Shown piece by piece: positions 5,983 through 41,754 of a DNA stretch of 45,600 nucleotides; within the stretch, counting starts at the first letter, position 1; each line of letters opens with the position of its first letter. Under the pieces are notes generated by a model, which was not told the DNA's origin, made no database searches, and saw only the letters and a program-made list of their open reading frames with translations. This DNA is from Gemmatimonadota bacterium (GTDB lineage: Bacteria; Gemmatimonadota; Gemmatimonadetes; Longimicrobiales; Gaopeijiaceae): the NCBI GenBank assembly GCA_009841165.1, contig VXMI01000108.1, forward strand, positions 1-45,600, written 5' to 3'. Position numbers and translations under genes: made by a program.

Positions 5983-8900
5983 ATGGGATCGAATAGTGTT
6001 CCGCCTGTTTCCGGCAGCTTGAGCATCCGGCCCGCTCCAACGACCCCGTTCCTGTGCCTCGTCGCCGTCGGCACGCTGGCCGCCGGACGCGCGACTGCCC
6101 AGCAATTCGACCCGGCCGACCGCATCCCACCCGATCCCGCGGTGACCACCGGCACTCTCGCGAACGGGCTCACCTACTTCATCCAAGAGAACGACGAACC
6201 GGAGAACCGCGCCGCCTTGCGCCTGGTCGTGAACGCCGGCTCGATCCTCGAGGACGACGACCAGTTGGGGCTCGCACACTTTGTCGAGCACATCGCCTTC
6301 AATGGGACGGAGAACTTCGAGAAGCAGGAGCTGGTCAGCTACCTCGAGTCGATCGGGATGCAGTTCGGTCCCGACCTCAACGCGTACACCAGCTTCGACG
6401 AGACGGTGTACATGCTGCAGGTCCCGATGGATGATCCCGAGGTGCTCGCGACCGCCTTTCAGATTCTCGCCGACTGGGCCGGCGGTGTTCTCTTCGACCC
6501 CGAGGAGGTCGACGCGGAGCGCGGCGTCGTGATCGAGGAGTGGCGGGGACGGCTGGGCGGCACGGACCGAATCCAGGATGAGCAATTGCCGATCATCTTC
6601 AACGGCTCGCGCTACGCGGACCGGCTCCCGATCGGAGACCCGGAGATCCTGGCGAATGCCCCGGTCGAACGGCTGCGCAGCTTCTACGAGGACTGGTACC
6701 GGCCGGAGCTCATGGCGGTCGTCGCGGTCGGCGACTTCGATGGTGACGTGATAGAGGGGCTGATCCGCGAGCACTTCGGAGGGCTTGAGGGCCCCGACAA
6801 TCCACGTCCCAGAACCGAGGCGGACGTCCCGATCGACCATCCGCCGCTGATCTCGATCGGGACCGACCCCGAGTTCCCGGCGGCCCAGGTTCAGGTCCTC
6901 TACAAGCTGGCCGAGAGCCCGCGAGGCACGGTGGCCGACTTCCGGCGCGCCCGGGTGCAGTCGCTATACGCGCGGATGCTGAGCGAGCGGCTGGGTGAGT
7001 TGACGTACCAGGCAAACCCACCGTTTGCGGAAGCATCCGCGAGCGTAAACAACCTCGGGCGCGGGGCGGACGCCTCCCGGTTCAACGCGGCTGTGGCCTC
7101 GGGCGGATACATGCGGGCACTCGACGCGGTCCTGACGGAGGTCGCGCGCGTGGCGCGGCACGGTTTCACGGCAGTTGAACTCGAACGCGAGAAGGCGTCG
7201 CTCCGGCGGAGCCAGGAGCGTCGGCTGGCCGAGGCGGAAGACCGGTCGTCGGCGTCGCTTGCCAACCGGTACACCCAGGCGTTCCTGAACGGGAATCCCT
7301 ACCCGAGCGTCGAGACCGAGGTGGCCCTTCTCGACGCCGTCTTGCCCGGGATCACGCTTGCCGAGACCAGCGCCTTCGCGCGGGAATGGCTGACCGACGA
7401 GGGACGCGTGGTCCTGGTGGCCGGCCCGGAGAGAGCGGGGCTCCACGTGCCGGACGAGGAGGAGGTGGCCGAAGTGTTCGCGGCCGTCGCCGCGAAGGAA
7501 ATCGATCCCTACGTGGTAGTCGATCTCGATGTCCCTCTCCTCGCCGAAATCCCCGAGGGCTCCCCGGTCATCGCCGAGGAGTCGGTGAACGAGATCGGCG
7601 TGACGATCTGGGAGCTTGCGAACGGCGTGCGGGTCGTGCTCAAGCCCACCGGCTTCAGCGACGACGAGATCGTGTTCCGAGGCACGAGCCCCGGTGGTAC
7701 GTCGCTCGCGCCCGAGGAGATCCTCGGCCATGTCCTTCCGATAACCCGGATGCCCGATGGGGACCTGGGCGCAATCATTGCGGGGGGCGGAGTCGGCGAG
7801 CTGGGTCCGGTCGCCCTGAACCGGCATCTCTCCGACAAGGAGGCCAGCGCCGTGCCCTTTGTCGGGCCTCTGACCGAGGAAATCCGCGGCTCCGCTTCCC
7901 CGCAGGACATGGAGACGGCGCTGCAACTCATCTACCAGCGGTTCACGGCACCACGGATGGACGAACCGGTCTTCCAGAGCCTCAAGTCCCAGATCCCCGT
8001 TCTCGCCAACCTGGGATTCCTGCCGTCGATGATGTTTCTGGACACCCTCGCGGCCTACATGGGACAGGGTCACCCCCGCGGGCCACAGACGCTGGCGCAA
8101 CAGATCCGGGACAAACGCGCCGCGGAGCTGGACGTGGCGATGGGTTTCTACAGGGACCGTTTCGCGGACGCGTCCGACTTCACCTTCTATTTCGTGGGCG
8201 CCTTCGATCTCGATGGAATCGGGCCGCTCGTCGAAACGTACCTCGGCGGGCTGCCCAGCCTCGGGCGCTCGGAAGACTGGATCGACCACGCTGTGGATCC
8301 CCCGCCGGGCGTCATCGAGAGGACGATTTACAAGGGGATCGCGCCCCAGAGCACGACGGCAATCTTCTTCCGCGGAGACGGCGAGTATTCGCCCGAGGAG
8401 TCGATGGTCATCGGCGCGATGGCCGCAATCCTCCAGACCCGGTTGCGGGAGCGGTTGCGCGAGGAGTTGGGAGGCACCTACAGCGTCGGCGTTTCGGGTG
8501 GAATCAGCTACCGGCCCGACGAGGAATACAGCGTGGCGATCCAGTTCGGCTCGGACCCCCGGCGCACCGAAGAGCTTGGCGCTGCAGTCTTCGAGGAGAT
8601 CGAGCGGCTCAAGGCCGACGGTCCCGACGCGGAGGTGGTCGACAACAGCCGCGAAGCGCAGCGGCGCTCGAAGGAGACCAGCCTCGAGCGCAACACGTAC
8701 TGGCTGGGCCAGCTTGCCGCCCACGAGAACGCGCGCCGGGACATCCGGGGAATCCCCTCCTACGACCTGATCGAGGCCTGGACGGCGGAGCAGGTGCGTC
8801 AGGCGGCCAAGCGGTACCTGCGCACGGACCAGTACATGAAGTTCGTGTTGCTCCCGGAATACATGATGCCGCGCGCCCGGGTCGCTGCCGGCTCGCCGGT

Positions 8901-11403
8901 GCCGGTCGAGGTGATCCCGTCCGGGGAGTTCGTCCACCAGGGCGCGACCGACCTCGCCGACGCGCTCCGCACCCTGTATCCCTCATTCAACGTCAACACA
9001 CAGCCGATCAGCGGCGCGTCCACCCTTGCCCGGCCGGCGAATCTGCGCGGCCTCGCGCCCGACCACGCGCTGGTGCTCGTAAACGGCAAGCGCCGCCACC
9101 GCGCGGCGGCGATCGCGTGGCACGGCAACGGCCTCGCCGACGGCGCCCAGGGTCCCGATCTCGCTCTCATTCCCGCCCTGGCGCTGAGGGAGGCCGAGAT
9201 CCTGCGCGATGGCGCTGCTCCACGCCACGGCGCGGACGCGATCGCCGGCGTCATCAACTTCGCGCTGAAGAACGATCGCTCCGGCGGCACCATCGAGTAC
9301 GGGACGGGCGGCCACCTCCTCGGCGATCCGAGTGCGCCCTTCGAGCGCGGCGTCTTCCCCGGCGACGGCGAGATGCACACCGTCTCGGGAAACGTCGGCC
9401 TGCCGATCGGTCAATCCGGGTTCCTGAACCTGACCGGCGAATACGGCAGCGCGATGCCCACCGACCGCAGCGTGCAGCGCAACGACGCGCTCGCGCTGAT
9501 CGGCTCCGGCAACACGAGCGTCCGGGAGCCGGCGCAGATCTGGGGCTCGCCGGAAGTCTCCGACGACATCAAGCTGTGGGCGAACTCGGGTTATTCCCTC
9601 CTGGGCGGCATCGCGCATCTCCACTTCCACGGCAACTACGCGAGCAGGCAGGTCGAGGGCGGTTCGCATTTCCTCAACCCCTACACCCGTAGTGGCGTTT
9701 TCGGCTCCACGGACGGCGCAGGCGGTGGCGCTCTGCTGATTGGCGACATGCTCGATGCGCGCGACGGCGTTGTCGACGGCTCGGCAGGGTGTCCGGCGGT
9801 GCGGGTCGAGGGCGGCCTGGTCGCGTCCGACGCGGAGAACCAGGCGAATTGGCGCCGCGTTCTCGAAGACCCCAACTGCTTCACCTTCCGGAAGATGTTC
9901 CCCGGAGGCCTCGCGCCCCAGGTCGGCGCCCACATCCTCGACGGATCGGCGGTCGGCGGGCTCCGGGTGAACTGGGGAGGCCTTTCGCTGGACGCAAGCG
10001 GTGGCTGGGGCAGGTCGAACCTGGACTTCTTCGCCTACAACACGGTCAACGCCTCGCTGGGGCCGGACCAGCCCTGCAGTGACAAGGGGACCTCGCCGGC
10101 CGTCCCCGACCAGCCCTGCATCCCCTACTTCAACCCCGGGTCCCAGGACCAGCGGGAAACAACCGTGAACGTCGACCTCTCCTACGCGAAGAGCGAGACG
10201 ACCAGCATCGCGGGCGGTTTCGAGTGGCGGAAGGAGGCGTTCGAGATCGTGGAGGGCGATGGGGCGTCGTGGACTGCGGGGCCGCTCGCGGTCCAGGGAT
10301 TCACCCCGGGGTCCAGCGGGTTCACCGGGTTCGGGCCATTCGCTGCGGGACAGTGGGTCCGGACCAACGTTGCGGGCTACGGCGACATCGAGTTCAGGGA
10401 AGCGGACAACAAGTGGCTCGTCGACGTGGCTGGGCGCCTCGAGAACTTCTCGGACTTCGGGCTGGCGGTCAGCGGAAGGGTGGCCGCAAGGCTGACCCTC
10501 ACCGGCTCATTGTCGCTCAGGGGCGCGCTCGGCACCGGCTTCCGGGCGCCCACTCCCGGGCAACACAACGCCTTCAACGCCTCGACGATCCACGAACCCG
10601 GCGTCATGGAGCCGGTGAACAGCGGCACGATCCCCGCGACCTCGCATGTCGCGGAGCGGTACGGTGGCGAGCCGATGGAGCCGGAGAAGTCCGTCAACGC
10701 CTCGTTCGGCGCCGTGTTGGGCCAGGGCGGATTTCAACTCGCCGCCGATTACTTCCTTATCGACGTGTCCGACCGCCTCACGCTCAGCAGGAACTTCGAG
10801 CCGACGGGCGAAGACATCGACCGGCTCCTCGACGACGGCATCACTCCTTCTCGCGGCGTGATCGACCGCTTCCGTTTCTTCACCAACGACCTCGCGACGC
10901 GCACGCAGGGCGTCGATGTCGTAGCCACCTACCAGGTGGAGACCGGGCAGGGCACCACCAGCCTGACTTCCGCATGGAACCGGACCACCACCAGGGTCAC
11001 GCGGCACAACGACAGGACTCTGAGCGATCTGCGGATCCGGATCCTGGAGGAGGGTCTCCCCGGCCTGCGCGGGAACGTCTCGGCGAACCACGCCTTCCCC
11101 GGCGGGACGCGGGCGCTGGTGCGCGCAAGCTACTGGGGCGGCTACTTCGACGCTCTGACGCCGCACTACGAGTCGGACGCGAGCAACACCGTCGACTACC
11201 CGGGCCGCGTGCTCGTCGATGCCGAAGTGGCCCGGACCTGGATGGACAGCTGGACGCTCACGCTGGGCGCCCGGAACATGCTCAACAACCTCCCGGAGGA
11301 GTATTCCGGCGCGGCGGATGGCCTCGGCAACCGCTACGGCCCTCTCACACCATTCGGCTTCAACGGTGCCTTCTTCTACACGCGGCTCACCTACAGTTGG
11401 TAA
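5983..11403 (+). CDS. M16 insulinase-type peptidase fused to a TonB-dependent receptor
   Basis: A single 1806-residue frame. Residues 1-40: signal peptide (ends ATAQ). Residues about 45-960: an M16 zinc peptidase with the inverted zinc motif HFVEH (99-103) and a likely third ligand Glu179, followed by the inactive second half typical of the family. From about residue 965 the sequence becomes a TonB-dependent receptor: the plug (SPVPVEVIPSGEF, RPANLRGLAPDHALVLVNGK, ILRDGAAPRHGADAIAGVIN) and then a long beta-barrel ending FFYTRLTYSW, with a terminal aromatic residue as expected for outer-membrane insertion. The receptor part lacks its own signal peptide, N-terminal carboxypeptidase-like domain and TonB box. 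The start follows AGAGGAG by 7 bases. It could cleave a peptide and import the product at the outer membrane, or be an accidental in-frame deletion joining two genes. Confidence 0.88.
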   Translation: MGSNSVPPVSGSLSIRPAPTTPFLCLVAVGTLAAGRATAQQFDPADRIPPDPAVTTGTLANGLTYFIQENDEPENRAALRLVVNAGSILEDDDQLGLAHFVEHIAFNGTENFEKQELVSYLESIGMQFGPDLNAYTSFDETVYMLQVPMDDPEVLATAFQILADWAGGVLFDPEEVDAERGVVIEEWRGRLGGTDRIQDEQLPIIFNGSRYADRLPIGDPEILANAPVERLRSFYEDWYRPELMAVVAVGDFDGDVIEGLIREHFGGLEGPDNPRPRTEADVPIDHPPLISIGTDPEFPAAQVQVLYKLAESPRGTVADFRRARVQSLYARMLSERLGELTYQANPPFAEASASVNNLGRGADASRFNAAVASGGYMRALDAVLTEVARVARHGFTAVELEREKASLRRSQERRLAEAEDRSSASLANRYTQAFLNGNPYPSVETEVALLDAVLPGITLAETSAFAREWLTDEGRVVLVAGPERAGLHVPDEEEVAEVFAAVAAKEIDPYVVVDLDVPLLAEIPEGSPVIAEESVNEIGVTIWELANGVRVVLKPTGFSDDEIVFRGTSPGGTSLAPEEILGHVLPITRMPDGDLGAIIAGGGVGELGPVALNRHLSDKEASAVPFVGPLTEEIRGSASPQDMETALQLIYQRFTAPRMDEPVFQSLKSQIPVLANLGFLPSMMFLDTLAAYMGQGHPRGPQTLAQQIRDKRAAELDVAMGFYRDRFADASDFTFYFVGAFDLDGIGPLVETYLGGLPSLGRSEDWIDHAVDPPPGVIERTIYKGIAPQSTTAIFFRGDGEYSPEESMVIGAMAAILQTRLRERLREELGGTYSVGVSGGISYRPDEEYSVAIQFGSDPRRTEELGAAVFEEIERLKADGPDAEVVDNSREAQRRSKETSLERNTYWLGQLAAHENARRDIRGIPSYDLIEAWTAEQVRQAAKRYLRTDQYMKFVLLPEYMMPRARVAAGSPVPVEVIPSGEFVHQGATDLADALRTLYPSFNVNTQPISGASTLARPANLRGLAPDHALVLVNGKRRHRAAAIAWHGNGLADGAQGPDLALIPALALREAEILRDGAAPRHGADAIAGVINFALKNDRSGGTIEYGTGGHLLGDPSAPFERGVFPGDGEMHTVSGNVGLPIGQSGFLNLTGEYGSAMPTDRSVQRNDALALIGSGNTSVREPAQIWGSPEVSDDIKLWANSGYSLLGGIAHLHFHGNYASRQVEGGSHFLNPYTRSGVFGSTDGAGGGALLIGDMLDARDGVVDGSAGCPAVRVEGGLVASDAENQANWRRVLEDPNCFTFRKMFPGGLAPQVGAHILDGSAVGGLRVNWGGLSLDASGGWGRSNLDFFAYNTVNASLGPDQPCSDKGTSPAVPDQPCIPYFNPGSQDQRETTVNVDLSYAKSETTSIAGGFEWRKEAFEIVEGDGASWTAGPLAVQGFTPGSSGFTGFGPFAAGQWVRTNVAGYGDIEFREADNKWLVDVAGRLENFSDFGLAVSGRVAARLTLTGSLSLRGALGTGFRAPTPGQHNAFNASTIHEPGVMEPVNSGTIPATSHVAERYGGEPMEPEKSVNASFGAVLGQGGFQLAADYFLIDVSDRLTLSRNFEPTGEDIDRLLDDGITPSRGVIDRFRFFTNDLATRTQGVDVVATYQVETGQGTTSLTSAWNRTTTRVTRHNDRTLSDLRIRILEEGLPGLRGNVSANHAFPGGTRALVRASYWGGYFDALTPHYESDASNTVDYPGRVLVDAEVARTWMDSWTLTLGARNMLNNLPEEYSGAADGLGNRYGPLTPFGFNGAFFYTRLTYSW

Positions 11404-11467
11404 GGGTCGCAAGACCCGATGAAGTCACTGTGCGGTGGACGCGTGGCGCGTGGCGGTATTCCGCCCG
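11404..11467 (+). repeat. Dispersed repeat family A core, copy 1 (GNRA-like hairpin)
   Basis: Begins immediately after the TAA of the M16/TonB gene with GGGTCGCAAGACCC, a 5-base-pair stem closed by a GCAA tetraloop. The conserved tail follows (GATGAAGTCAC, TGCGGTGGACGCGTGGCG, GTATTCCGCCCG). Three more copies lie at 18447, 25488 and 30302. Its position suggests it may end transcription, although no T-run follows. Confidence 0.75.
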
Positions 11468-11482
11468 GCCGGTAGGACGGGA

Positions 11483-11580
11483 TTGGAAGAAGAGGGCGAC
11501 GAGCAGCTCGCTGCCAACGTCTCGTGTAAGGGACCGGCCGGTTGAGGGGCCCGGCACGGGAGGAGGGTTTACTTGGCGCG
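11483..11580 (+). repeat. Dispersed repeat family B, copy 2
   Basis: TTGGAAGAAGAGGGCGACG, then CTCGCTGCC, TCTCGTGTAAGGGACCGG and CCCGGCACGGGAGGAGGG. The same block occurs at 20893-21000 and 25803-25895. CTCGTG and CACGGG/CACGAG are complementary arms of a hairpin in each copy. It lies only 15 bases after repeat A, so the two may form one composite element. Confidence 0.7.
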
Positions 11581-11801: not shown

Positions 11802-12716
11802 ATGGACGACGCTGCCTTCAAGAAACTGTTTTCCCACAAGCGGATGATCGAGCTTCTGATCCGCCGCCACGTGCCGCAGTGGGACGAGAAGATCGACTAC
11901 TCGACGCTGGAAAGGCTGCCTGCGGAACTCATTGACGATCGTCTGCGGCGGCGCTATCCCGACATGCTGTGGCGCGCCTGCACGATCGACGGGTCTATTG
12001 ACATGATCCTGCTGCTTGAGTTTCAAGGCAGACCCGAGCGCGCCATGGTCCTGCGCACCACGGCCTACAGCGTTCTCGCCGTTCAGGAGCTGATGGAGCA
12101 CGACAGGGAACTCGGCCGCGGCGAGCGGCAACTCGCCATCGAGTCCCTGGTCCTACACCACGGCGACAGACGATGGAACGCTCCAACCCGCTTGCGCGAC
12201 CTGTTCCAGGATTCCGCCCCCGATACCCATCGCGTGGTCGAGCCCCTGCCGCTGGACGCTGCGCCATCGGGGCCGTTGGACCTGCCGCAGATGATTCTGG
12301 GGCTCGGGGGCTTGGGCGCCGAGACCGAGATGATAAAGCACGTGCGGACGCTACGACGCGTAGTCGACAGCTGCGTGGACGAGGACTTCGACCCGTTCAT
12401 GGCCCGGGGCCTGAAGGCAATGTTACGTTCGAAGGGGTTTGACACCGACCGACTGAAGGAGGCGATGACCATGGGAGCAGTGGAGACTGAGTTTGGGCGC
12501 GGTTGGGACGCTGTCAGACAGCAGGGAATCGAAGCGGGACAGCTGACGCTCCTTCGCCTCCAAGCCGCCCGCAAGTTCGGACGCGAGACCGCCGATGAGC
12601 TGACGCGATTGCTCACGCGGACTCCCGATGACGAACAGGTGGGTCGAGTCGCAGCGGCCATAGTGGATTGCAACGCGGCGGACGACTTCCTGGCGCGGGT
12701 ACGGGGAGACGGTTGA
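11802..12716 (+). CDS. Rpn family recombination-promoting nuclease / DUF4351-type protein
   Basis: A 304-residue protein of the YhgA/Rpn-like PD-(D/E)XK transposase-related family. N-terminal half: MDDAAFKKLFSHKRMIELLI, then the nuclease core YPDMLW (catalytic Asp) and LLLEFQ (the ExQ variant of the ExK motif), followed by RTTAYSVL. C-terminal half: LQAARKFGRETADELTRLL, typical of the DUF4351-like helical tail. Characterised Rpn proteins are Ca2+-stimulated DNA endonucleases that promote RecA-independent recombination. No clear ribosome site precedes the ATG. Family copies at 12769 and 21405 are more similar to each other than to this one. Confidence 0.8.
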   Translation: MDDAAFKKLFSHKRMIELLIRRHVPQWDEKIDYSTLERLPAELIDDRLRRRYPDMLWRACTIDGSIDMILLLEFQGRPERAMVLRTTAYSVLAVQELMEHDRELGRGERQLAIESLVLHHGDRRWNAPTRLRDLFQDSAPDTHRVVEPLPLDAAPSGPLDLPQMILGLGGLGAETEMIKHVRTLRRVVDSCVDEDFDPFMARGLKAMLRSKGFDTDRLKEAMTMGAVETEFGRGWDAVRQQGIEAGQLTLLRLQAARKFGRETADELTRLLTRTPDDEQVGRVAAAIVDCNAADDFLARVRGDG

Positions 12717-12768: not shown

Positions 12769-13719
12769 TCACGAGCCCATCCGCACCCGCTCGATGAACT
12801 CGTCGCCGGTGGCGCATTCGAGCAGAGCGTCAGTCACCTTGTCGATACCTTCGGGGCTGGTGAGTTTCCCGAGAAGCCCGGTCACGCGTGTTTCCGTCTC
12901 CTCGCCAAACTTCCGTTGGATCTGACGGCGAAGAAGCATGGCCCGACCCTGCTGGCGCCCCTGTCGTATTCCCTGCTCGATCCCCTGCCGGACACCCCTC
13001 CGGACCAGTTCGTCCATACCCTGCCGGAATCTGTCCACCACCTCTGCCATGGTCTTCGCTCCTCCCTTCATCAGTCGTGCCGGGTAGTCCCTCAACTCTA
13101 ACATCGTGTCCACGCTCTGGCCCATCAATCCGGCCAGGCCTGGATCCCCGTGCTTCTCGATGGAACGCCACAGAGCCGACAACTGGCCGGCCATGTCCTC
13201 CGGTGAAAGGTTGCGGGCCAGGCCGAGCACCAACGCCGCGAGATCGTCGCGCGATCGGTCGTCTCCCCTTCCCTCTCTCCACTGGACCAGACGATAGCGA
13301 CCCGGATCGGAGCGCTGGAACAGGTCGGTCACGTGGGTCGGGGCGGTCCAGAGGCTGTCGCCGTGGTAGAGGACGAGATAGACGAACTCGGGGAGGGAAT
13401 CTCCTGGCCGGAAGTTAGGTCCCGCGACGATGCCTTCGAGCGTGAGCGCGGAATAGGTGGTCGTCCGCAGGGCCATCAGTTGCTCGACCCTGCGCTGGAA
13501 CTCCAGCAGGAACAGGACGCTCTCCCCATTGACGGTGTCGGCGGACCAGATCATGTCGGGGTGTCGCCGCTGGAAAGTCTTCTTGCTGACGAGCCCGGTG
13601 GGTTCCTCGCGAAGCGTCGAGAAGTCGATCTCGATCGCCCACTCGGGCGAGTGGCGGCGGATGAGGATCTCGACCATGCGGCGGTCGGCGAACACCGACT
13701 TGAGGAAGGCGTCGTGCAC
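12769..13719 (-). CDS. Rpn family nuclease, paralogue 2
   Basis: A 316-residue protein starting with GTG (MHDAFLKSVFADRRMVEILI), with GGAG five bases upstream. PD-(D/E)XK core: HPDMIW and FLLEFQ. A flexible basic stretch near residues 230-260 (RRGVRQGIEQGIRQGRQQGR) precedes the DUF4351-like tail. It is a close paralogue of the gene at 21405-22304, including about 135 bases of upstream DNA, so the two arose by duplication of a cassette with its leader. It is convergent with the Rpn gene at 11802, leaving a 52-base gap. Confidence 0.82.
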   Translation of the reverse strand: MHDAFLKSVFADRRMVEILIRRHSPEWAIEIDFSTLREEPTGLVSKKTFQRRHPDMIWSADTVNGESVLFLLEFQRRVEQLMALRTTTYSALTLEGIVAGPNFRPGDSLPEFVYLVLYHGDSLWTAPTHVTDLFQRSDPGRYRLVQWREGRGDDRSRDDLAALVLGLARNLSPEDMAGQLSALWRSIEKHGDPGLAGLMGQSVDTMLELRDYPARLMKGGAKTMAEVVDRFRQGMDELVRRGVRQGIEQGIRQGRQQGRAMLLRRQIQRKFGEETETRVTGLLGKLTSPEGIDKVTDALLECATGDEFIERVRMGS

Positions 13720-15837: not shown

Positions 15838-18147
15838 TCATTGGCGCCTGCCCGCGGCACTTGTTGACCCGCATGTCGACCTGCCCCGGTGATCAGCGAT
15901 TCGGCGAAGCCATGCTTGGAATTCCTGGTTGTCGGGGGAGCAAAGCCTGGTGTAGTTCCAATGAAAGAGCGCGAGCGGGACGTTGATGAGCTGTTGAGGG
16001 AGCGCACCCCCAAGCCCGCTGTACTCTACATCCAGATGTCTCAGGTTGGAGAGCCGACCGAACTCGGACGGAATCGAATCATCCAGGTAGTTGCGGCTGA
16101 GATCCAAGTGCCTCAGGCTAGCAAGCTGACCCAACTCGGCCGGAATAGAACCCTCTAATCCACTGTCGCTGAGATCCAGGTGCTCCAGTTTTGAGAGTTG
16201 GCCGAGTTCGGCCGGAATCGGGCCGCCCAGGTCCCACACGTCCACCAACTCCAATCGAGTCAGGTTCCGCAGATTGCCGAACTCCCGCGGGATCGCTCCC
16301 TCGAAATGGGTTTCGCTCAGGTTCAGCAATTGAAGCTTGTCGAGCTTGCCGATCTCGGACGGAATGGGACGGCCCGTGCCCAAGTTGAAGTTGTCGCTCA
16401 GATTCAACTCTTCCAAATCCCGCAAATCACCGATCCCGGGCGGTAGGACGCTGTAGATCCGGTTACCGCTGAGGTCGAGACGCTTGAGCTTCGGTAGATC
16501 CATGTTGCTAGGGATTCTACCGTAGAGACTGTTGTCGGGCAGGCGTAGCTCGATGACCCGGCCATCGTTGTCGGTCGTGACCCCATACCAGACGCCCAGC
16601 GGTTCGTCGCTCAGCCAGTTGGTGTTGATGTCCCAGTAGTCAGCCCCTCGGGTGGACGAAAAGAATGACGTGAGCGCCGTACGATCCGAGAGCTGTCCGC
16701 AGGTCAATCCCTCATGATCGGTGATCCCGGCGAGCCACTCTACGAATGCACTGTTCTCGGGGGAGCAAAGCCGTGTACCATTCCAATGGAACAGATCCAG
16801 CCTCAGTTTGACTAACACCTGCGGGAGCACACCGTCCAGTCCGCTGACGCTGAGGTCCAAGTGTCTCAAGTTGGAGAGCTGTCCGAGTTCGGACGGAACC
16901 GAACCTTCAAGTCCGCTACCACTGAGGTCCAGGTGTCTCAAGTTGGAGAGCTGTCCGAGTTCGGGGGGCATCGGACCGTCCAAGTAGTTCAAATCGGCTA
17001 GATGCAACCAAGTCAGACTCCGAAGATCTCCGAGTTCCCGCGGGATCGGTCCATCGAAGTCTGTACCGCTTAGGTTGAGCGATTCGAGCTTGTCGAGTTG
17101 CCCGAGTTCCGCCGGTATCGTGTACCACGTCCTGGTCCAACCATGAAAGATGGAATAGGTGGACGAATAGCCCAGTTGCCCGTTCCCCTGGAGATGCAAC
17201 TCCTCCAGATTCCGCAAGTTGCCGATCTCCGCCGATAGAATGCCCTCGATCCCGTTGTCGCTGAGGTCCAGCTTCTTGAGCTTCTCCAGATTGCCGAGTT
17301 CGGGGGGAATCGATTCACGAAGGTTGTTGTTGGCAAGGTTCAACTCGATGACCCGTCCCCCTTCACCGGTCGTTACCCCGTACCACGTGCCCAGCGGCTG
17401 GTCACTCAGCCAGTTGGTGTCGATGTCCCAGGAACGAAGGCCGATGGTGGTCGCACCGTACAGCGCCACAAGCGCGGCCCTATCGGGGTTTTCGACGACC
17501 GTGAGTACAGCACGGCCGTTGATTCCTGACGTTGTGGCCGTCACCTCTGCTTTGCCCACGCCCATCCCGGTCACCAGCCCTGAATCGTCCACCCTGGCCA
17601 CCAGCGTATCGCTGGAAGACCACGCGAACTGCGAGCCTGCGACCGCATGGCCGTTCGCGTCGGTCGCTTCCGCCACCAAGCGGACCGTGTCCCCGAACGC
17701 CACCAGCGTGTCGGCGGAGGGCGACACGGCGACCGCGCTCGCCACCTGGGTCACCGTCACCGCCGCCGTCCCAGAGACCGAGCCCGCCGTCGCCGTGATC
17801 GTCGCACTCCCGTTCGCCGCCGCCGTCACCAGCCCCGAGGCGTCCACCGACGCGACCGAGGCGTCGCTGCTCGCCCACACGACCGCCGCCCCCGCCATCA
17901 CCCTCCCGTTCTGATCGCGCACTTCGGCCGTGAACCGGGCCGTCTCTCCCAACGCGGAAAGTGCGGCCGAACCCGGGTTGACTGTTACCGTGGTGGCGAC
18001 AGGAGCGGGAGGAGGAGGGATCGGCTCTACCGCCCCGTCGCCGCAGGACAGGACCAGCAAGGCGATCACGCCAGCCGCCATTGCCGAGTGCGTGAAGCCC
18101 GCGGTCGGCCGCCCCCGTGATCGCTCCTCGCACCCTTGGTGCCTCAT
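15838..18147 (-). CDS. Big2-domain and leucine-rich-repeat lipoprotein
   Basis: 769 residues. A lipoprotein signal with lipobox LSC (VIALLVLSCGDG). Two bacterial Ig-like Big2 domains follow (residues about 50-215: VWASSDASVASVDASGLVTA and FAWSSSDTLVARVDDSGLVT). Then come two tandem plant-type LRR modules, each with a cap (DTNWLSDQPLGTWYGVTT / NTNWLSDEPLGVWYGVTT), repeats of 'IPxELGqLsnLrhLDLSgs', and a C-terminal Cys-containing end (LFHWNGTRLCSPENSAF / LFHWNYTRLCSPDNQEF). The second module is a duplicate of the first. The start is firm: GGGAGGAG lies 6 bases before the ATG. Surface-exposed binding or adhesion is likely; the ligand is unknown. Confidence 0.88.
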   Translation of the reverse strand: MRHQGCEERSRGRPTAGFTHSAMAAGVIALLVLSCGDGAVEPIPPPPAPVATTVTVNPGSAALSALGETARFTAEVRDQNGRVMAGAAVVWASSDASVASVDASGLVTAAANGSATITATAGSVSGTAAVTVTQVASAVAVSPSADTLVAFGDTVRLVAEATDANGHAVAGSQFAWSSSDTLVARVDDSGLVTGMGVGKAEVTATTSGINGRAVLTVVENPDRAALVALYGATTIGLRSWDIDTNWLSDQPLGTWYGVTTGEGGRVIELNLANNNLRESIPPELGNLEKLKKLDLSDNGIEGILSAEIGNLRNLEELHLQGNGQLGYSSTYSIFHGWTRTWYTIPAELGQLDKLESLNLSGTDFDGPIPRELGDLRSLTWLHLADLNYLDGPMPPELGQLSNLRHLDLSGSGLEGSVPSELGQLSNLRHLDLSVSGLDGVLPQVLVKLRLDLFHWNGTRLCSPENSAFVEWLAGITDHEGLTCGQLSDRTALTSFFSSTRGADYWDINTNWLSDEPLGVWYGVTTDNDGRVIELRLPDNSLYGRIPSNMDLPKLKRLDLSGNRIYSVLPPGIGDLRDLEELNLSDNFNLGTGRPIPSEIGKLDKLQLLNLSETHFEGAIPREFGNLRNLTRLELVDVWDLGGPIPAELGQLSKLEHLDLSDSGLEGSIPAELGQLASLRHLDLSRNYLDDSIPSEFGRLSNLRHLDVEYSGLGGALPQQLINVPLALFHWNYTRLCSPDNQEFQAWLRRIADHRGRSTCGSTSAAGRRQ

Positions 18148-18322
18148 TTTGCTCTCCTCCCGAGCCGAACCGCGCGATCTTCGTATCGCGCTACCTGTTT
18201 GTTCGCGATCAACGAGCTATTTCATCGTCGGTGTGGAAGATAATCGTGATCTTCGAGAGAGCGCCAACGCCGCAAGCGGTACGGCTCGGCTACCAGGAAT
18301 GTCGATACTCGAGTTCGACCCT

Positions 18323-18510
18323 CCGGTGACGGATTCGCCTGGCTGGGCGTCAACCTCGAGGGCATGCGGTACAACAACTGGCCGGTCGCGCGGCTCATCG
18401 AGCGGTAGATCTCCCGTCCGCTCCTCCTGATCCGCTACCCGCGGCAGGGTCGCAAGACCCGATGAAGTCACCGTGCAGTGGACGGGTGACGCGTGGCAGT
18501 ATTCCGCCCG
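18323..18510 (+). repeat. Dispersed repeat family A, copy 2 with left arm
   Basis: The left arm (18323-18446) and core hairpin GGGTCGCAAGACCC (18447-18460) with conserved tail to ATTCCGCCCG (18510). The left arm keeps a plus-strand reading frame GDGFAWLGVNLEGMRYNNW ending in a stop, shared with the copy at 25366. The 400-base gap 18148-18556 holds nothing else. Confidence 0.72.
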
Positions 18511-21404: not shown

Positions 21405-22304
21405 TCAGCCCATCCGCACCCGTTCGATGAACTCGTCGCCCGTGGCGCACTCAAACAGGGCGTCGGTTACCCTGTCGACCTCATCGGGACCCGGCAGTTT
21501 GTCAAGTAGCCGGGACAACTGCCCAGCCGTCTCTTCGCCGAATCTCCGAGTCACCTGCCGACGCATCGAGCGCACCTCACCCTTCTGGACCAGCTCCTCC
21601 ATACCCTGCTTGAATCTGTCCACCACCTCTGCCATGGCCTTTCCTCCTCCCTTCATCAGTCGTGCCGGGTAGTCCCTCAACTCTAACATCGTGTCCACGC
21701 TCCGGACCATCAATCCGGCCAGGTCCGGGTCCCCGTGCCCCTCGATCGTACCCCACAGGCCCGACAACTGAACGGCCATCTCCGCCGGCGAAAGGTTGCG
21801 GGCCAAGCCGAGGACCAACGCGGTGAGATCGTCGCGCGGTCGGTCGTCTCCCGCACCCTCTCCCCACGGGACCAGACGATAGCGACCCGGATCGGAGCGC
21901 TGGAACAAGTCGGTTACGTGTGCCGGTGCGGTCCACGGGCCGTCGCCGTGATACAGGACGAAGTAGACGAACTCCGGGAGCAGATCTCCTGGCTTGTAGT
22001 CCGGCCCGGCGGCGATGCCCTCGAGCGTGAGCGCCGAATAGGTCGTCGTCCGCAGGGCCATCAGCCGCTCCACCGTCCGCTGGAATTCAAGCAGGAACAG
22101 GACTCTCTCCCCTTTGACGGTCGCGGCGGACCAGATCATGTCGGGATGACGTCGCTGGAGCGTCTTTTTGCTGACGAGCCCGGTGGATGCCTCACGCAGC
22201 GTCGAGAAGTCGATCTCGGACGCCCACTCGGGCGCGTGGCGGCGGATGAGGATCTCCGTCATGCGGCGGTCGGCGAAGACGGACTTGAGGAAGGCGTCGT
22301 GCAC
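21405..22304 (-). CDS. Rpn family nuclease, paralogue 3
   Basis: 299 residues, GTG start, same leader as the gene at 12769. PD-(D/E)XK core: HPDMIW and FLLEFQ, followed by MALRTTTYSALTLEGI. The tail RQVTRRFGEETAGQLSRLL is DUF4351-like. It differs from its paralogue mainly in lacking the RQG-rich linker. The gene pair with shared leader indicates recent duplication by a mobile or recombination event. Confidence 0.82.
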   Translation of the reverse strand: MHDAFLKSVFADRRMTEILIRRHAPEWASEIDFSTLREASTGLVSKKTLQRRHPDMIWSAATVKGERVLFLLEFQRTVERLMALRTTTYSALTLEGIAAGPDYKPGDLLPEFVYFVLYHGDGPWTAPAHVTDLFQRSDPGRYRLVPWGEGAGDDRPRDDLTALVLGLARNLSPAEMAVQLSGLWGTIEGHGDPDLAGLMVRSVDTMLELRDYPARLMKGGGKAMAEVVDRFKQGMEELVQKGEVRSMRRQVTRRFGEETAGQLSRLLDKLPGPDEVDRVTDALFECATGDEFIERVRMG

Positions 22305-25292: not shown

Positions 25293-25365
25293 GATCGACA
25301 TGCTCTGGAATCGGTGATCGGTTCGTCGGAACAGCTGATCGGAATCGTCGGAATGCGCACCGCCC

Positions 25366-25750
25366 CGGTGACGGCTTCGTCTGGTTGGGCGTCAACCTCG
25401 GGGGCGTGCGGTACGACGACTGGCCGGTCGCGCGACTTATCGAGCGGGAGATCTCCCGTCCGCTCCTCCTGACCCGCAATCGCGGAAGGGTCGCAAGACC
25501 CGATGAGTCACCGTGCAGTGGAAGCGTGACGCGTGGCAGTATTCCGCCCGACCACCAATCAGGGAGGCGAGTCTCGGCCCCACGCCGAACGCGCTGGACC
25601 GCCTCGATAGTCAGGGCTGGGCGGATGCACTCCGAGGCGTGAGGGAATGCCTGGACCGCCGGAAGCAACGTCGTGGCCGCAAGAAGGTCTCGGTCACTGT
25701 GCTCCCTTCGAGACCGCATCCTCGGGAACGACAGGTTGAGCGCCATCTTA
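25366..25750 (+). repeat. Dispersed repeat family A, fullest copy
   Basis: Left arm 25366-25487 (also at 18323), core hairpin GGGTCGCAAGACCC with tail 25488-25550 (also at 11404, 18447, 30302), and right arm 25551-25745 (also at 30366). The right arm keeps a plus-strand frame with LGPTPNALDRL and QGWADALRG in both copies, so the element may derive from a protein-coding gene. Confidence 0.72.
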
Positions 25751-26336: not shown

Positions 26337-29300
26337 CTAGCTGACAAGCCGGCGAAGCTCAGCAATAACCGCGTCCACATCGGCCACGTCCAGGCCTCCG
26401 CGCTCCTCAGTGGAGAACAGGCTCTCACCCTCCACAAATCCGTGGTTCAGATACCACTCTCGCTTCTTGTCCCATTCGGACGCGTACTGGGGATCCCCCA
26501 TCATGCCCAAGTGCTCCCAGATGATCGCGTCTCCGGCGTCATCGATAAAAGTAAAGTCGGGCCACTTCCAATCTCCGGGGGTTGGCTCAAAGCGGCATTC
26601 GTACTGTGGGTGGAGCCCTGCATCGAGGCATCGCGTGTAGATGAGCAGTTCAGACTTGGACCGGAGCAGCTCCCCGTCCGGCGCTCGGTGAACAAGATGC
26701 CTCGCGTACGGTCGATCCTCTCCCTCACGAACTGCTAACCTGAAGAGGTTGGTGTTCCTCTTGCTGGTCACCGAGGCAGTCGGCTTCGACAGATCTATTA
26801 GATCGCCTACACCGTCTCCCTGGACCATCAGCACTAGCTGTCGCCTTGACCGCGTCAGAGCTGTGTAGACCAGCTCTCGATAGACCATCGGGTGCCTTGG
26901 GAGGACGACTATCACCACGCCGAATTCCGACCCCTGGGCCTTATGCACGGTGAGCGCATACGCCAATTCGACGACCGTTCGGCGTGACTCGCCGTCACCG
27001 AAGTGCCGCCCATGAAAGTTGTAGGTGTGTTTGGCTGGTCGACCGGCGAAAAGCAGGTTGCGCCAATTCCGCCTGACCGTCCGCACTAGGGCTACCTCGC
27101 CATTCGCCAGGTATCCCGAGATTTTCTCCTGACGCTCACTGTCCCAGCCCTCCCGCTCACCGTTTTCGAGGAGGATGACCTTGTCATGCTTGATGATCTC
27201 CTGCGGTCCCGCGGCTGAGTTGGACCGGCGCGCTTGTTCGAGCTTCCTCAACCGCCAGGTCGACTGAATCCACTTGTTCAGGTCATCACAGCCCCAAACG
27301 TCTCGCCTGACTGGCGATAACACCTGCCACTGTTCGGCACCGGCTGGGTCGTTCGGCACCCAGCCCCTCTTGTACGGCTCCATCAGGAAGGACCGATTAA
27401 AGGCTTCGAGGTCGTCCTGATCTGCGATCTGCAGGTGGTCCCGAAGAGCCCCCGCAATCCCTTCCTGAAGGCTGCGGGCGTCGGACCAAAAGCGGATGTC
27501 GAGGTCCGTCAGCTGAGCCTTTCGCTCAACCATGTCGACGAATATCGACTCGGCATCGGGGCTCAGTTCATCGCCCGTGAACCACCTTGCCAACCGCAAC
27601 GTGTCCGACTGCTGGCCTTGCACGGCGCGGACTTCATGTTTGAGCCTAGCCAGTGCACCCCGCCGGATTTCACGGTCATCCAGATCCTCGTCCTCGCTCA
27701 CATCTGCCGGATCGAGGTGAGCTACCAGGTCCGCGAAGGGTCTTCCGGCTCCAATTGGAGGTAGCTGGGCCGGGTCGCCAACGAGAATCAGACGCTTCAC
27801 TCCTGCACCAAACGTCCCTATGACTGCCGCGAGAGTGTCCTCCGTGAGCATCGAGGCTTCGTCAACAACGACCGCCTCATGGCCATCGTAACAAGGCCCT
27901 CCGATGATGGGCTCCTGTCGGCTTCCGTCATACCGCCCTTGGGAATGAAGGAACTTCGCCACGGTCATGACGTCGGTCCCCTCAGCGACTCGCGACTCAA
28001 GCCGAACCCGGGCCTTTCCGGTTGGAGCCAAGAAGAGGACACGGCCCTGTTGGGAAGTGCCACGGGATAGCGCACCCAAAACAGTGGTCTTTCCGGTGCC
28101 CGCGCGGCCGACGAGCACACTGGCCTTCCGAGTAGTAAGTCTCTCTAGGGCGTCGGCTTGCTCATTCAGAGCGGCAGATGTTCTCGGATCATTCGGATCG
28201 AAGCGGTCACCCTGGGCAAGCGTGTCTTTCACCGTCTCAACCAAGATGTCATTCCACTGCTCTCCGAGGCTCGGGAGTTTCTTGTTTGTGCGAGCCCGCA
28301 GCTTTCGCTGAAGCCTATCGGCCACGTCTCGTCGCTCAGTCAGCTGCAGCCACTGCGGATCTCCATCAGTCGCCACGACCCGCTCCGAAAGGAAGTCGAC
28401 TTCGGCGCGGGTCCACCCATCGGGCACAACAACCGGATCAGCCACCGGGATCTTGGCAACCCTATCGCGGGCTTCCGGCACTCCGAGAAGGGTGTCTCCC
28501 TGGGTTTCCGCCCTTCGGAGTGTCGCTACCAAAGCTGCTCGAAGACGCCGTCTGTCGGCCGGGGAGAGGACGCTGACCTGTCTACCGGAGTTCAGCGCCC
28601 CAAGGTCGACGGTCGCAAAGGACACTGGCCGCGAGTCTCGGCTCCCCCGATCGAGCTCAGCGACGACATAGGGATTGTCGATGATCTCGCGATCCGACAC
28701 ACCATTCCCTGCGGTCTTGGATCTGAGTGACTCTTCCCACCACCGCCGCGCCTGCTCTACAGTAATGGCAAGGCGGGACAGACACCTCGCCAACTCCATG
28801 CGCTCGGGCTGTCCCTTGTAATAGACCCACTGCGAGGCGAAGGCAGCGATGTCCGCCTGAAAGCGATCGTGGGGCGGAGGGGTGACTCCGTCAAGCACTT
28901 GGGACACTGCTGCCCACGGGTCGGCGGCGAACTGCGGATCGCGAGAGGCCGCAAGTTGCACGAGGCTCACTCCCATACGCAGACCCATAGCTTCCAGGAC
29001 AGCCCCGACGCCCGGATTCGGGCCTCTCAAGCGCCAAGTGGCGGACAGGCGCTCGTTCAGCCACGTTTCGGCTGCTGCCCAAGATCCTCTTGCGATCCCG
29101 TCTTCGCGGAGATAGTGGGCAACCTTGATCGCCCTCGTGAGCACGCCGATCGTCGCGTCGGGCGTGATGTGTTCCGTCCGGTAGGAGAACTCGGCTATTC
29201 TGTCTTGATCGGGTTCGATAACGAGGCGCTTAGCGAGGTCGGCTCGCCTCGCGTCTTCGTCCTCGTCTCCGGTCGGTGTCAGGTAGTCACTGAATGGAAC

Positions 29301-30011
29301 AAGGAGCCCCCCCTCACCGCCCGCACGCAGGCTGTGAGCGATCTCGCGTTCCCAGATCGGGTGAGCGCTCACTGAGCCTTGAGTCGAATCGTAGAAAGCA
29401 ACTTGCCCGATCCGCTCTATCGAACCGACTCCCACGACGAGGCGAGAGATGTCGTCCCCAAGGGGATGGGCGCCCTTGGTATAGAAGAGGGCCAGGGAGG
29501 TGTCCTTCTCCACGGGCTCGTAGAAGGCATCCAGAATCGCCGCCTGTAAAGCGGGGTTGAACACCCACGCAGTCTTGAAGCCCTGAGGGGGGTCCTCTTC
29601 CGGCGGGAGCATCCTGAGCACGCGAGGAGCCACCCAGCTCTCTCGGTTCTCTTGCCTGAGCCAGCGGAACGGAACCCCCAGAGCGGTATATCGGGGCACG
29701 CGGCGAATGGTCTTCTTCAGGTGGCCGTGGGTTTCCGCGACCCTCTCTATCCCCGTGTATGGATGCTGGTGCTCCACGTACCAATCCTCAGGTGAGAGAA
29801 AGCCGCCGGACTCTTTCGCGCAGGGTGGGAGGAAACTGGCGAAGGGCTTGCCGCGGACGCGCAGCTCACGTGAGACGCTCTTCCGCTGAAGGATGTTCTT
29901 GTAGTCAACGCAGTGGCAGTTCGCTGCCGGATCACGACACACGGTTCCGTTCCACTGGGAGTCGTGCCACGGTACACGGATGCTCAGATTCGTTGTCACC
30001 TGCTCCCCCAT
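26337..30011 (-). CDS. SF1 RecD-like helicase with C-terminal PD-(D/E)XK nuclease
   Basis: 1224 residues from the ATG at 30011. N-terminal domain: IRVPWHDSQWNGTVC with cysteines at 25, 32, 34 and 64, a possible metal or Fe-S site. Helicase core: Walker A GRAGTGKTT (Lys at about 641), Walker B VVVDEASM, motif III LVGDPAQLPPIGAG, and the RecD-type end ALTVHKAQGSEF and YTALTRSRRQLVL. C-terminal nuclease: KSELLIYTRCL, then WPDFTF and IIWEHLG (the D...E of PD-(D/E)XK). This plan occurs as stand-alone genes in defence islands; phage DNA degradation is the likely role. It is divergent from the small-gene/RT cluster. The helicase and nuclease calls are firm; naming a specific system is not. Confidence 0.82.
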   Translation of the reverse strand: MGEQVTTNLSIRVPWHDSQWNGTVCRDPAANCHCVDYKNILQRKSVSRELRVRGKPFASFLPPCAKESGGFLSPEDWYVEHQHPYTGIERVAETHGHLKKTIRRVPRYTALGVPFRWLRQENRESWVAPRVLRMLPPEEDPPQGFKTAWVFNPALQAAILDAFYEPVEKDTSLALFYTKGAHPLGDDISRLVVGVGSIERIGQVAFYDSTQGSVSAHPIWEREIAHSLRAGGEGGLLVPFSDYLTPTGDEDEDARRADLAKRLVIEPDQDRIAEFSYRTEHITPDATIGVLTRAIKVAHYLREDGIARGSWAAAETWLNERLSATWRLRGPNPGVGAVLEAMGLRMGVSLVQLAASRDPQFAADPWAAVSQVLDGVTPPPHDRFQADIAAFASQWVYYKGQPERMELARCLSRLAITVEQARRWWEESLRSKTAGNGVSDREIIDNPYVVAELDRGSRDSRPVSFATVDLGALNSGRQVSVLSPADRRRLRAALVATLRRAETQGDTLLGVPEARDRVAKIPVADPVVVPDGWTRAEVDFLSERVVATDGDPQWLQLTERRDVADRLQRKLRARTNKKLPSLGEQWNDILVETVKDTLAQGDRFDPNDPRTSAALNEQADALERLTTRKASVLVGRAGTGKTTVLGALSRGTSQQGRVLFLAPTGKARVRLESRVAEGTDVMTVAKFLHSQGRYDGSRQEPIIGGPCYDGHEAVVVDEASMLTEDTLAAVIGTFGAGVKRLILVGDPAQLPPIGAGRPFADLVAHLDPADVSEDEDLDDREIRRGALARLKHEVRAVQGQQSDTLRLARWFTGDELSPDAESIFVDMVERKAQLTDLDIRFWSDARSLQEGIAGALRDHLQIADQDDLEAFNRSFLMEPYKRGWVPNDPAGAEQWQVLSPVRRDVWGCDDLNKWIQSTWRLRKLEQARRSNSAAGPQEIIKHDKVILLENGEREGWDSERQEKISGYLANGEVALVRTVRRNWRNLLFAGRPAKHTYNFHGRHFGDGESRRTVVELAYALTVHKAQGSEFGVVIVVLPRHPMVYRELVYTALTRSRRQLVLMVQGDGVGDLIDLSKPTASVTSKRNTNLFRLAVREGEDRPYARHLVHRAPDGELLRSKSELLIYTRCLDAGLHPQYECRFEPTPGDWKWPDFTFIDDAGDAIIWEHLGMMGDPQYASEWDKKREWYLNHGFVEGESLFSTEERGGLDVADVDAVIAELRRLVS

Positions 30012-30301
30012 GTTTCTGACTGATTGCCCACACCTGATCCTAGCCCATCGGCGCGAGGACGCCGCATTCACGGCGCCCGCTCTCGACACCTCGTGCTCAT
30101 GCACCTGCCCGTGCCACTGAAGCCATGGCCGCGCTTCCGACATCTTTGGGGCCTGGGCTCTTACACTCTTCTGCCATCATAGAGTGAGCGATGAGCACGG
30201 TCTCACGAACTAGCAGCAAATAGAATAACAGATCGAGTGTCCGGGCGGTTATCCGCATCCTAACGCAGCTGGAGCCGTATCGGTGGCCCAGCATCCACGC
30301 A

Positions 30302-30560
30302 GGGTCGCAGGACCCAGCAAGACCACCGTGCAGTGTACGCGTGACGCGTGGCAGTATTCCGCCCGACCGCCTATCCGGGAGGCGAATCTCGGCCCCACGC
30401 CGAACTCGCTGGATCGCCTCGGTGGTCAGGGCTGGGCGGATGCCCTGCGAGGCGCGGGGGAATGCCTGGACCCCCGGAAGCAACATCGCGGCCGCAGAAA
30501 GGTCCCGGTCACTCTGCTCCCTTCGAAACGGCATCCTTGGAAACGACAGGTTGAGATGTA
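30302..30560 (+). repeat. Dispersed repeat family A, copy 4 with right arm
   Basis: Core GGGTCGCAGGACCC keeps the stem with one loop change (GCAG). The right arm to about 30555 is clearly homologous to 25551-25745. The left arm is missing. It fills most of the 816-base gap (30012-30827) between the helicase and the next genes; no gene is visible in the remainder. Confidence 0.75.
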
Positions 30561-30827
30561 TGTGAGCCCCCACCTCAAGATCGGGAACCTGCTCGCCGAG
30601 ATCACGCCTCGGGCGATGCGGCAGGCGAGGGACAACCTGGAACCGCTCTACAGGTTTGTTGCTGAGCAGTCGGCGTACGGCGTCCTGTCGGGGAGTGATT
30701 GTGGGCCTAAGGGATCGAGCCGACGGTGCGGTTGACGCCCCCGCGAAACAGACTTTACGCTTAAGAACGGACACTCGGTGCCGGGGCCCAGAGACGCCCC
30801 GAACCCAATAGAGGATGGAGGAGTCAG

Positions 30828-31031
30828 ATGGCCCGAAAACCCCGCGACACTTACAAGTATGTTCTGAAGAGGGGCAGGAAACGGATTCGTTCCGGCATCA
30901 CCAATGACCTAGAGCGCAGAGAACAAGAGCACCGACGCGACCACGGCTCGGACGTGCGTATTCTCCAGGTAGGAAGACGGACCACTCGAGATGCCGCCCG
31001 CGACTGGGAAAGCGACCAGAGTGACAGCTGA
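30828..31031 (+). CDS. Small GIY-YIG-like protein
   Basis: 67 residues: TYKYVLKRGRKRIRSGITND, then LERREQEHRRDHG, the 'Y.yvL..g....GiTndleRRe.eH' pattern of minimal GIY-YIG-fold proteins. It is short and lacks the C-terminal glutamate region of active nucleases, so it may bind rather than cut. Excellent ribosome site (GGAGGAG four bases before the ATG). Its stop overlaps the next ATG (TGATG), forming a small operon upstream of the reverse transcriptase. Confidence 0.6.
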   Translation: MARKPRDTYKYVLKRGRKRIRSGITNDLERREQEHRRDHGSDVRILQVGRRTTRDAARDWESDQSDS

Positions 31032-31225
31032 TGATTGACGACCGGTATACTAGCGGGTTCCAGAAGATGCGCGAAGAGGCACGTCAGAAGCGCGCAGAAC
31101 AACGAGACTTGGCTCGGGGTGCTGATCTCTCAGAAGTTGGTCCGGTGATGCTCTGCCAGATCGCTGAGTTATTGGAAATCATCGAAGGCCATCTCCGATC
31201 AATCTCACGGAGTGTTCAACGGTGA
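31031..31225 (+). CDS. Small hypothetical protein, helical
   Basis: 64 residues, highly charged at the N terminus (KMREEARQKRAEQRDLARG), then a helical end (MLCQIAELLEIIEGHLRSIS) that could form a coiled coil. No membrane segment, so it does not match the membrane partner known from type 1 DRT systems. It is coupled to the GIY-YIG-like gene by a one-base overlap. Function unknown. Confidence 0.55.
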   Translation: MIDDRYTSGFQKMREEARQKRAEQRDLARGADLSEVGPVMLCQIAELLEIIEGHLRSISRSVQR

Positions 31226-31517
31226 CGCCAGCAAATGGCGATAGAAGCTCATCCTAGGATACCAGACCTAGGTTGATCAGCGATCCCGCTCCCACAGGAC
31301 GTACCGAGGGGTGCTGGCAGCTCGCCCATTGGATGGCGAGGATGGGCCTGCTATCGGCGTCCGAGTATCCGACCGAGGCGCGTGGCCGGGATCACGTCGA
31401 CCCGGTGGACTTTGGACCTGATCCGTGACGACTCCTGAGCCACACTCGCTCGCCAGAATAGTCGATGGCTCAGCCTCGGTGACAGGCCAGCCCGTCAAGG
31501 TGCTGGGAACCTAACGC
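31226..31517 (+). other. Structured intergenic region before the reverse transcriptase
   Basis: A 292-base gap with several good stems: CCTAGG repeated 8 bases apart (about 31256-31275), CTCGCC/GGCGAG (31321-31340), CCGGG/CCCGG (31386-31405) and TGAGCCA/TGGCTCA (31436-31472). The first could terminate the small-gene operon. The others could belong to a leader or a noncoding RNA used by the RT. No convincing promoter or gene was seen. Confidence 0.35.
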
Positions 31518-35270: not shown

Positions 35271-35430
35271 TGTCGCACCGCGTGGCTAGGACTAGTATTG
35301 GAACAAAACGCTGCCACAGCGGATGGGCTGCTGATTCCGGCCCATGCCCGCGAGAAGCTCAGCCGGAAGGCGGCCTGATTTTCGAGCTGTCCACTTGTCC
35401 AGTAGACCGGGACCGCTACAGACTGAATTC

Positions 35431-38970: not shown

Positions 38971-39052
38971 ACCGACTTGCGCCCCTGATGTTGTACAGTA
39001 ATCAGCTGACACCCGGCCTCGCCGAGGTCAGGTCTACGCTGCGGTCTTGGCC

Positions 39053-39195
39053 TCACGTTCTAGGTGCGGGCTTCCGGGTGCGCCGCTTCCGCGGGATCCC
39101 GCCCTTGAAGACCTCGTAGGGCGTCCTGCCCTCCATCCCGCGGCCGCAGTGGGGTCGGCGTGTTGTAGGCCTCAAGATAGCCGTCTAGGTCCAAG
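39053..39195 (-). pseudogene. Transposase C-terminal fragment (integrase-core type)
   Basis: RGMEGRTPYEVFKGGIPRKR followed by RTRKPAPRT and a stop is the C terminus of a DDE integrase-core transposase (IS3/IS481-like 'YNt.rpHqGrgm.GrTPyevF'). The preceding YLEAYNT lies in another frame, so a frameshift separates the two halves. The rest of the element is gone. Confidence 0.65.
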
Positions 39196-39415
39196 TACGT
39201 TCGGTACCCGCCCCATCCTCAATGGTCCTGGGGGTCTCCGTCTACCTCCCACAACAGCGGACTTGGATTCTTGGGCGCAACGTGGTATCATTACATTAAT
39301 TGGACTTTCCTCTCTGCCTACCACCAACATGAGGGCTGGCGAAATGAAGTGGACCTGTCGCAAAGAGACCGACCGACCGACGCGTTCTTGGCCTGATCGG
39401 TAGTAGGAACTACCC
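39196..39415. other. Short gap before the sce pair
   Basis: AT-rich around 39284-39305 (GGTATCATTACATTAATTGG), a plausible promoter region for the plus-strand pair that follows. A short GACC tandem (39368-39381) is also present. Nothing gene-like was seen. Confidence 0.3.
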
Positions 39416-41288: not shown

Positions 41289-41312
41289 AGAGACAAAGGA
41301 ACTGTGGAATCT

Positions 41313-41500
41313 TCCGCAAGGACAGCAAGGTCAAGAAGCGCACCCGCACCCTAGCCAACTTGTCGGATTGGCCCAACGATCTCGCGCGCGGCCTGCGCAT
41401 CCTGCGCACGGGACGCGCCGCCCAGAAGTCGATGGACGAGACCTTCCAGATCCTGCTCTCCTGCGCTCATGGAAACGTCGCCGCCCTGTGCCCTGCGCTT
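41313..41500 (+). pseudogene. IS1634-type transposase fragment
   Basis: A frame without a start reads RKDSKVKKRTRTLANLSDWP, then FQILLSCAHGNVAALCPALG, matching the N-terminal part of IS1634-like transposases ('gkv+hrTLaNLs.wP', 'SlpHGhvaAvlg'). The DDE core is missing. The following 250 bases (41501-41754) show a hairpin CCCGG-TCTTTT-CCGGG (41672-41687) and no clear gene. Confidence 0.6.
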
Positions 41501-41754
41501 GGGGTCGATCACTCAACGGCAAGCCAAGACTGGGCTGGAAACTCCACGACCGTGTCAAGGCCCGGTGCCCACGATGATCCGTATCAAAGTCGCTGCCGCC
41601 GTGAACCGCAGTAACCACCAGTCGCCGGCCCAGAAGTCCACGTAGGCCCCGCCGGCCCCTTGAGCGGAACGCCCGGTCTTTTCCGGGTGCGTACTGCGCT
41701 TGAGCGACATCTCCTGTCCTTGAGGCTGACACCGCGCTTGAAGCCGGATGATGT

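Follow-up and report, generated by a model that had tools for sequence, protein, structure and literature searches.

One uninterrupted open frame in the window (the whole stretch of 45,600 nucleotides that we analysed) encodes a protein of 1806 aa in which an M16 protease runs directly into a TonB-dependent receptor (TBDR). The original prediction had described an in-frame fusion of the two, and Pfam domains of both parts, all above their cut-offs, were found within this single frame. We refer to the genome of the window copy as G000. The fused gene and its parts are as follows.

5983-11403, plus strand: fused gene, M16 protease to TonB-dependent receptor, 1806 aa, uninterrupted open frame, also found in G002 and G005
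5983-6102, plus strand: N-terminal stretch of the M16 half, a putative signal peptide with the hydrophobic core PFLCLVAVGTLAAGRATAQ, read by eye
6103-8862, plus strand: complete FusC/PqqL-type M16 protease, residues 41-960, from Pfam and solved relatives
8863-8892, plus strand: joint or linker, the EYMMPRARVAAG region, residues ~959-970, from blastn homology breaks and alignment to separate relatives
8893-9252, plus strand: receptor plug domain, residues 971-1090 (PF07715, 9.3e-14)
9253-11400, plus strand: receptor beta-barrel (PF00593, 1.6e-26 over residues 1335-1765), aromatic C-terminal segment FFYTRLTYSW

Pfam placed Peptidase_M16 at residues 66-186 (1.3e-30) and found two Peptidase_M16_C stretches (2.2e-36). 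Among solved structures, the N-terminal part has its best relatives in the M16 family peptidase 9ldy, PqqL and FusC, which it matched over almost all of their length (residues 47-914, 48-948 and 23-960, respectively), with PqqL among the closest (4e-74). Judged by Pfam and the 9ldy and PqqL matches, this half is a single chain with the M16 domain set expected of a four-domain protease of ~100 kDa. The zinc motif HxxEH reads HFVEH at residues 99-103 and the downstream Glu motif is ERGVVIEE at residues 179-186; both align to PqqL, FusC and 9ldy and are identical in G002 and G005. The signal-peptide region of the window copy is kept in G002, and the N-terminus of G005 is different but signal-peptide-like.

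The receptor half has both the Plug domain (residues 971-1090) and TonB_dep_Rec_b-barrel (residues 1335-1765), and its barrel aligns to the last residue with separate homologues. Using blastn, we found that DNA homology to standalone M16 genes stops at ~8846-8867 and that homology to standalone receptors begins exactly at 8893. These breaks place the joint at residues ~960-970, in agreement with the prediction of a complete peptidase followed by a receptor at about residue 965. The protease is retained in full up to its usual C-terminus (FVLLPE...) but has lost its stop codon, and ~10 residues separate its last residues from the plug; the sequence across the joint is KFVLLPEYMMPRAR-VAAGSPVPVEVIPS.

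What was lost lies on the receptor side: its signal peptide, its CarboxypepD_reg domain and a conserved TonB-box-like motif. The separate homologues inspected have this motif (VVVGTRAQP / VAVGSRARP), which is missing from the alignment in all three fusions. N-terminal to the plug, VVVGTR / VAVGSR is replaced by EYMMPRARVAAG in the window copy and by AYLMPRARIATS in G005. On family grounds, we read VVVGTR/VAVGSR as the TonB box. The prediction of a receptor half with neither a signal of its own nor a TonB box therefore held, and the fused protein apparently no longer makes the contact that normally couples such receptors to the TonB energy system. Because the motif is missing, we do not claim canonical TonB dependence and call the fused half a TonB-dependent receptor by descent. 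AlphaFold2 models of residues 607-1806 and 41-1110 had mean pLDDT values of 27.7 and 30.3, from shallow alignments of 4-5 sequences.

The fused gene copy lies beside a defence island spanning 26337-45199 of the window.

26337-30143, minus strand: PDC-S68-like helicase
31518-35270, plus strand: DRT1a reverse transcriptase-nitrilase
35344-38970, plus strand: type IIG/ISP restriction-modification enzyme
41755-43644, minus strand: Gabija GajB
43490-45199, minus strand: Gabija GajA

Three YhgA-like (Transposase_31) genes are clustered at 11802-12716, 12769-13719 and 21405-22304, in a region that is duplicated or rearranged relative to G002. Stretches of ~170-190 bp at 11399-11566 (directly behind the fused gene), 18319-18510 and 25365-25551 correspond to a single segment that is repeated in the G002 contig. 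A leucine-rich-repeat protein with bacterial Ig-like (Big_2) domains is encoded at 15838-18147. The surroundings of the other two copies have features of their own. Upstream of its fused gene, G002 carries additional sequence (L047:5705-7491) that encodes a BlaR1-like M56 peptidase together with a BlaI-like repressor, and in G005 the end of a TPR-repeat gene (L066:5734-8070) overlaps the fused gene by four bases (ATGA), a setting different from that of the window.

The original prediction had called for a search for the same fusion in related genomes, and had named an assembly error at the joint, or relatives in which the genes are always separate, as grounds for abandoning it. Neither applies. 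The full-length fusion is present at 95% identity in G002 (Gemmatimonadetes bacterium SB0664_bin_10, contig VXQO01000004.1) and at 82% identity in G005 (SB0672_bin_21, contig VYAQ01000206.1); in the remaining 20 genomes of the genus the halves are separate. When a joint-spanning probe was run against a phylum sample of 395 genomes, it matched on both sides of the joint only in G000, G002 and G005, and the other matches listed start at the plug. Full-length searches of the family (121 genomes), the order (154) and a class sample (394) gave no further fusion among the matches listed. Four other very long frames (C3 of G000, 1760 aa; C13 of G046, 2551 aa; C20 of G118, 2496 aa; and C18 of G004, 1637 aa) were considered as further fusions and rejected as spurious frames, N runs or single-stop read-through into a downstream gene.

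Since the contigs come from MAGs and the parent genes are separate in most relatives, an assembly chimera of two genes had to be considered. The same joint recurs in two other assemblies, at 95% and 82% identity, and it carries independent substitutions (AYLMPRARIATS in G005 versus EYMMPRARVAAG in the window). The G005 copy also has different flanks: beyond the fused gene itself, its contig has no DNA in common with the window, and its chromosomal setting is unrelated. The recurrence of the joint in G002 and G005 rules out a chimera, to which we assign a negligible probability. The fused frame is intact in G000 and G002. In G005 it is broken by a one-base insertion in a G run at residue ~421 (L066:~9293), and the sequence is constrained on both sides of the insertion (dN/dS 0.22 before, 0.29 after). 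Either a recent mutation or a sequence error would fit, the coverage of this contig being 11.7-fold.

The closest separate M16 genes (68-74% identity) belong to G007, G009, G014, G004 and G010. Their shared neighbours place them in a radC-M16-nagB setting, which also holds G000's own 60% M16 paralogue. These five genomes also contain the closest separate receptors (about 70%), but at a different conserved locus, behind an apparent aminotransferase gene that also adjoins G000's 62% receptor. Such separate receptors carry a signal peptide of their own, a CarboxypepD_reg domain and the TonB-box-like motif. The direct parents are thus standalone Gemmatimonadetes genes for an M16 protease and a CarboxypepD_reg-type TBDR, each about 70% identical to its half in five species and, unlike the window gene, unfused. 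This shows both parents to be ordinary Gemmatimonadetes genes.

A deletion joining two neighbouring genes, as had been suggested for the origin of the fusion, found no support. In five species the closest separate genes lie at unrelated loci, and no examined relative had the two parents side by side in the order and on the strand that a deletion would require. The M16 and receptor homologues of G057 are about 4 kb apart on opposite strands. It is possible that an ancestor had the M16 and TBDR genes side by side. As the parents are not neighbours in the relatives, we saw no sign of a partnership before the fusion. Maximum-likelihood trees grouped the M16 halves of the three fusions in one clade (100/100) beside G007 and G014, and their receptor halves in one clade (100/100) beside the receptors of the same five genomes. 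These trees indicate that the fusion arose once, both halves coming from the clade of the closest separate genes.

By RpoB, G005 lies far from G000 and G002. In the RpoB tree, G000 and G002 group with G011 and G012, and G005 groups with G015, G018 and G021; RpoB identity between G000 and G005 is 83%. The dS of the fused gene between these two genomes is 0.32-0.46 (~0.39), under half the value of ~0.86 for the vertically placed radC-locus M16 genes of G007 and G000, which makes the fused gene younger than the divergence of the genomes that carry it. Together, the distant RpoB placements and the low dS show that the fused gene was transferred horizontally from one lineage to another within a single genus, with the species tree resting on one marker, RpoB. 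In a plasmid search, no record had one place covering 80% of the fusion.

The long open reading had been offered as an argument that the fusion is maintained. That argument is weak in a high-GC genome, so maintenance rests on a selection test, which upheld the claim itself. Nei-Gojobori dN/dS values (bootstrap 95% intervals) for the M16 half were 0.25 (0.15-0.39) between G000 and G002 and 0.28 (0.20-0.37) between G000 and G005; those for the TBDR half were 0.33 (0.22-0.49) and 0.29 (0.23-0.35), and the plug gave 0.21-0.23. These values show purifying selection on both halves after fusion. The receptor half is conserved though it has no export signal, which implies that the full chain is made. 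Three-point estimates for the fused branch were 0.30-0.37 (M16) and 0.37-0.48 (receptor), and those for the sister branches were 0.17-0.30 and 0.22-0.27. By these estimates the fused branch evolves faster than its parents, yet far from neutrally; protein evolution in the fused lineage is up to about twice as fast as in separate relatives.

That acceleration is one of several observations that would suit an evolutionary accident in a variable region, that is, a non-functional or decaying fusion caught before erosion. The window copy adjoins a defence island with repeats and genes for YhgA-like nucleases, a frameshift affects the copy in G005, and just three genomes of the genus carry the fusion. 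However, both halves keep dN/dS well under 1 across dS values of up to 0.39, the full frame persists in G000 and G002, and the zinc motif is retained in all three genomes. We therefore consider an accident unlikely.

TonB-dependent receptors have their N-terminus on the periplasmic side, so the fused M16 domain would sit where FusC and PqqL act. The domains are complete and in the topologically correct order, the protease preceding the plug and thus lying on its periplasmic side. Our preferred reading, to which we give a probability of about 0.5, is a true fusion in one polypeptide, in which a periplasmic M16 protease of the FusC/PqqL type is attached to a TonB-dependent receptor; the two were joined once, the gene moved horizontally, and the product would work in an import-and-cleave-like manner. 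By analogy, it would most likely be an outer-membrane-tethered periplasmic protease-receptor, the one-chain equivalent of FusA plus FusC. From what is known of the two families, the M16 signal peptide would take the chain through Sec, BAM would insert the barrel in the outer membrane, and the protease, ~10 residues from the periplasmic end of the plug, would be located at the barrel's inner mouth. There it would cut a peptide or protein on emergence, in the manner of FusA with FusC or YddB with PqqL, here in one chain. As the joint has taken the place of the canonical TonB-box region, import would have to use a different TonB/FusB contact or else be passive. Separate M16 and TBDR protein pairs are an established import-and-cleave system (PMC6793856, PMC6071955, PMC7593965). 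Import by FusA requires its TonB box (PMC7593965), and the absence of an equivalent motif here weakens this best explanation.

The same absence could mean that the barrel is only an anchor, a non-transporting receptor half that holds the M16 protease at the periplasmic face of the outer membrane or offers a binding surface on the outside. A motif conserved in the separate homologues inspected is missing in all three fusions, and dN/dS in the fused lineage is raised, in the TBDR half to 0.37-0.48 versus 0.22-0.27 on sister branches. The plug is still constrained, though, which a pure anchor does not obviously need, and the barrel is retained to its last residue; we regard an anchor as conceivable but doubtful. 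We think it improbable that the covalent periplasmic protease has taken over from the TonB-box region, such that capture and cleavage by the M16 clamshell, not TonB pulling on the plug, would drive or gate uptake through the barrel. It is also very hard to credit that the receptor half works outward, in the manner of the TBDR Oar in the export of the protease PopC in Myxococcus. Oar-type receptors carry CarboxypepD_reg domains, as do the separate relatives here, but the fusion has lost that domain. The link between a TBDR and protease export is published, Oar being reported as required for PopC export (PMC6434023). The protease of the fusion belongs to the periplasmic FusC/PqqL class and is held by a covalent tether.

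An import-and-cleave fusion, as we prefer to read it, invites comparison with two described systems. The Fus system of Pectobacterium likewise combines a FusC-type periplasmic M16 protease with a TonB-dependent receptor, and the M16 half matches FusC (PMC6071955, PMC7593965). Its components are separate proteins of one operon with fusB/fusD; here receptor and protease are encoded together in one open frame, and no fusB/fusD-like genes were recognised among the neighbours of the fused gene. FusA retains the TonB box DTILVRST, which it needs for import (PMC7593965), and the fusion has none. A PDB sequence search with the receptor half gave no match to FusA or to a YddB-related receptor; its only hits, over the plug, were the colicin I receptor and one for siderophores. 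The fusion may work like Fus, but we do not file it as a Fus system, because this search did not relate its receptor to FusA/YddB and its parents show no sign of an earlier partnership. YddB and PqqL of Escherichia coli show the same pairing of receptor and protease, with PqqL close to our M16 half, but they are separate genes (PMC6793856). Import-and-cut receptor-protease pairs have been described as separate gene products (PMC6793856, PMC6071955, PMC7593965), and our literature search, of partial coverage, found no published M16-TBDR fusion. The role of M16 proteases in translocation is disputed: a Brownian ratchet was proposed (PMC6071955) and contradicted for FusC (PMC7593965). A natural fusion without a TonB-box region, under selection and spreading, would allow a direct test of that role, and would show a receptor architecture in which an enzyme replaces the usual N-terminal signalling or CarboxypepD_reg domain.
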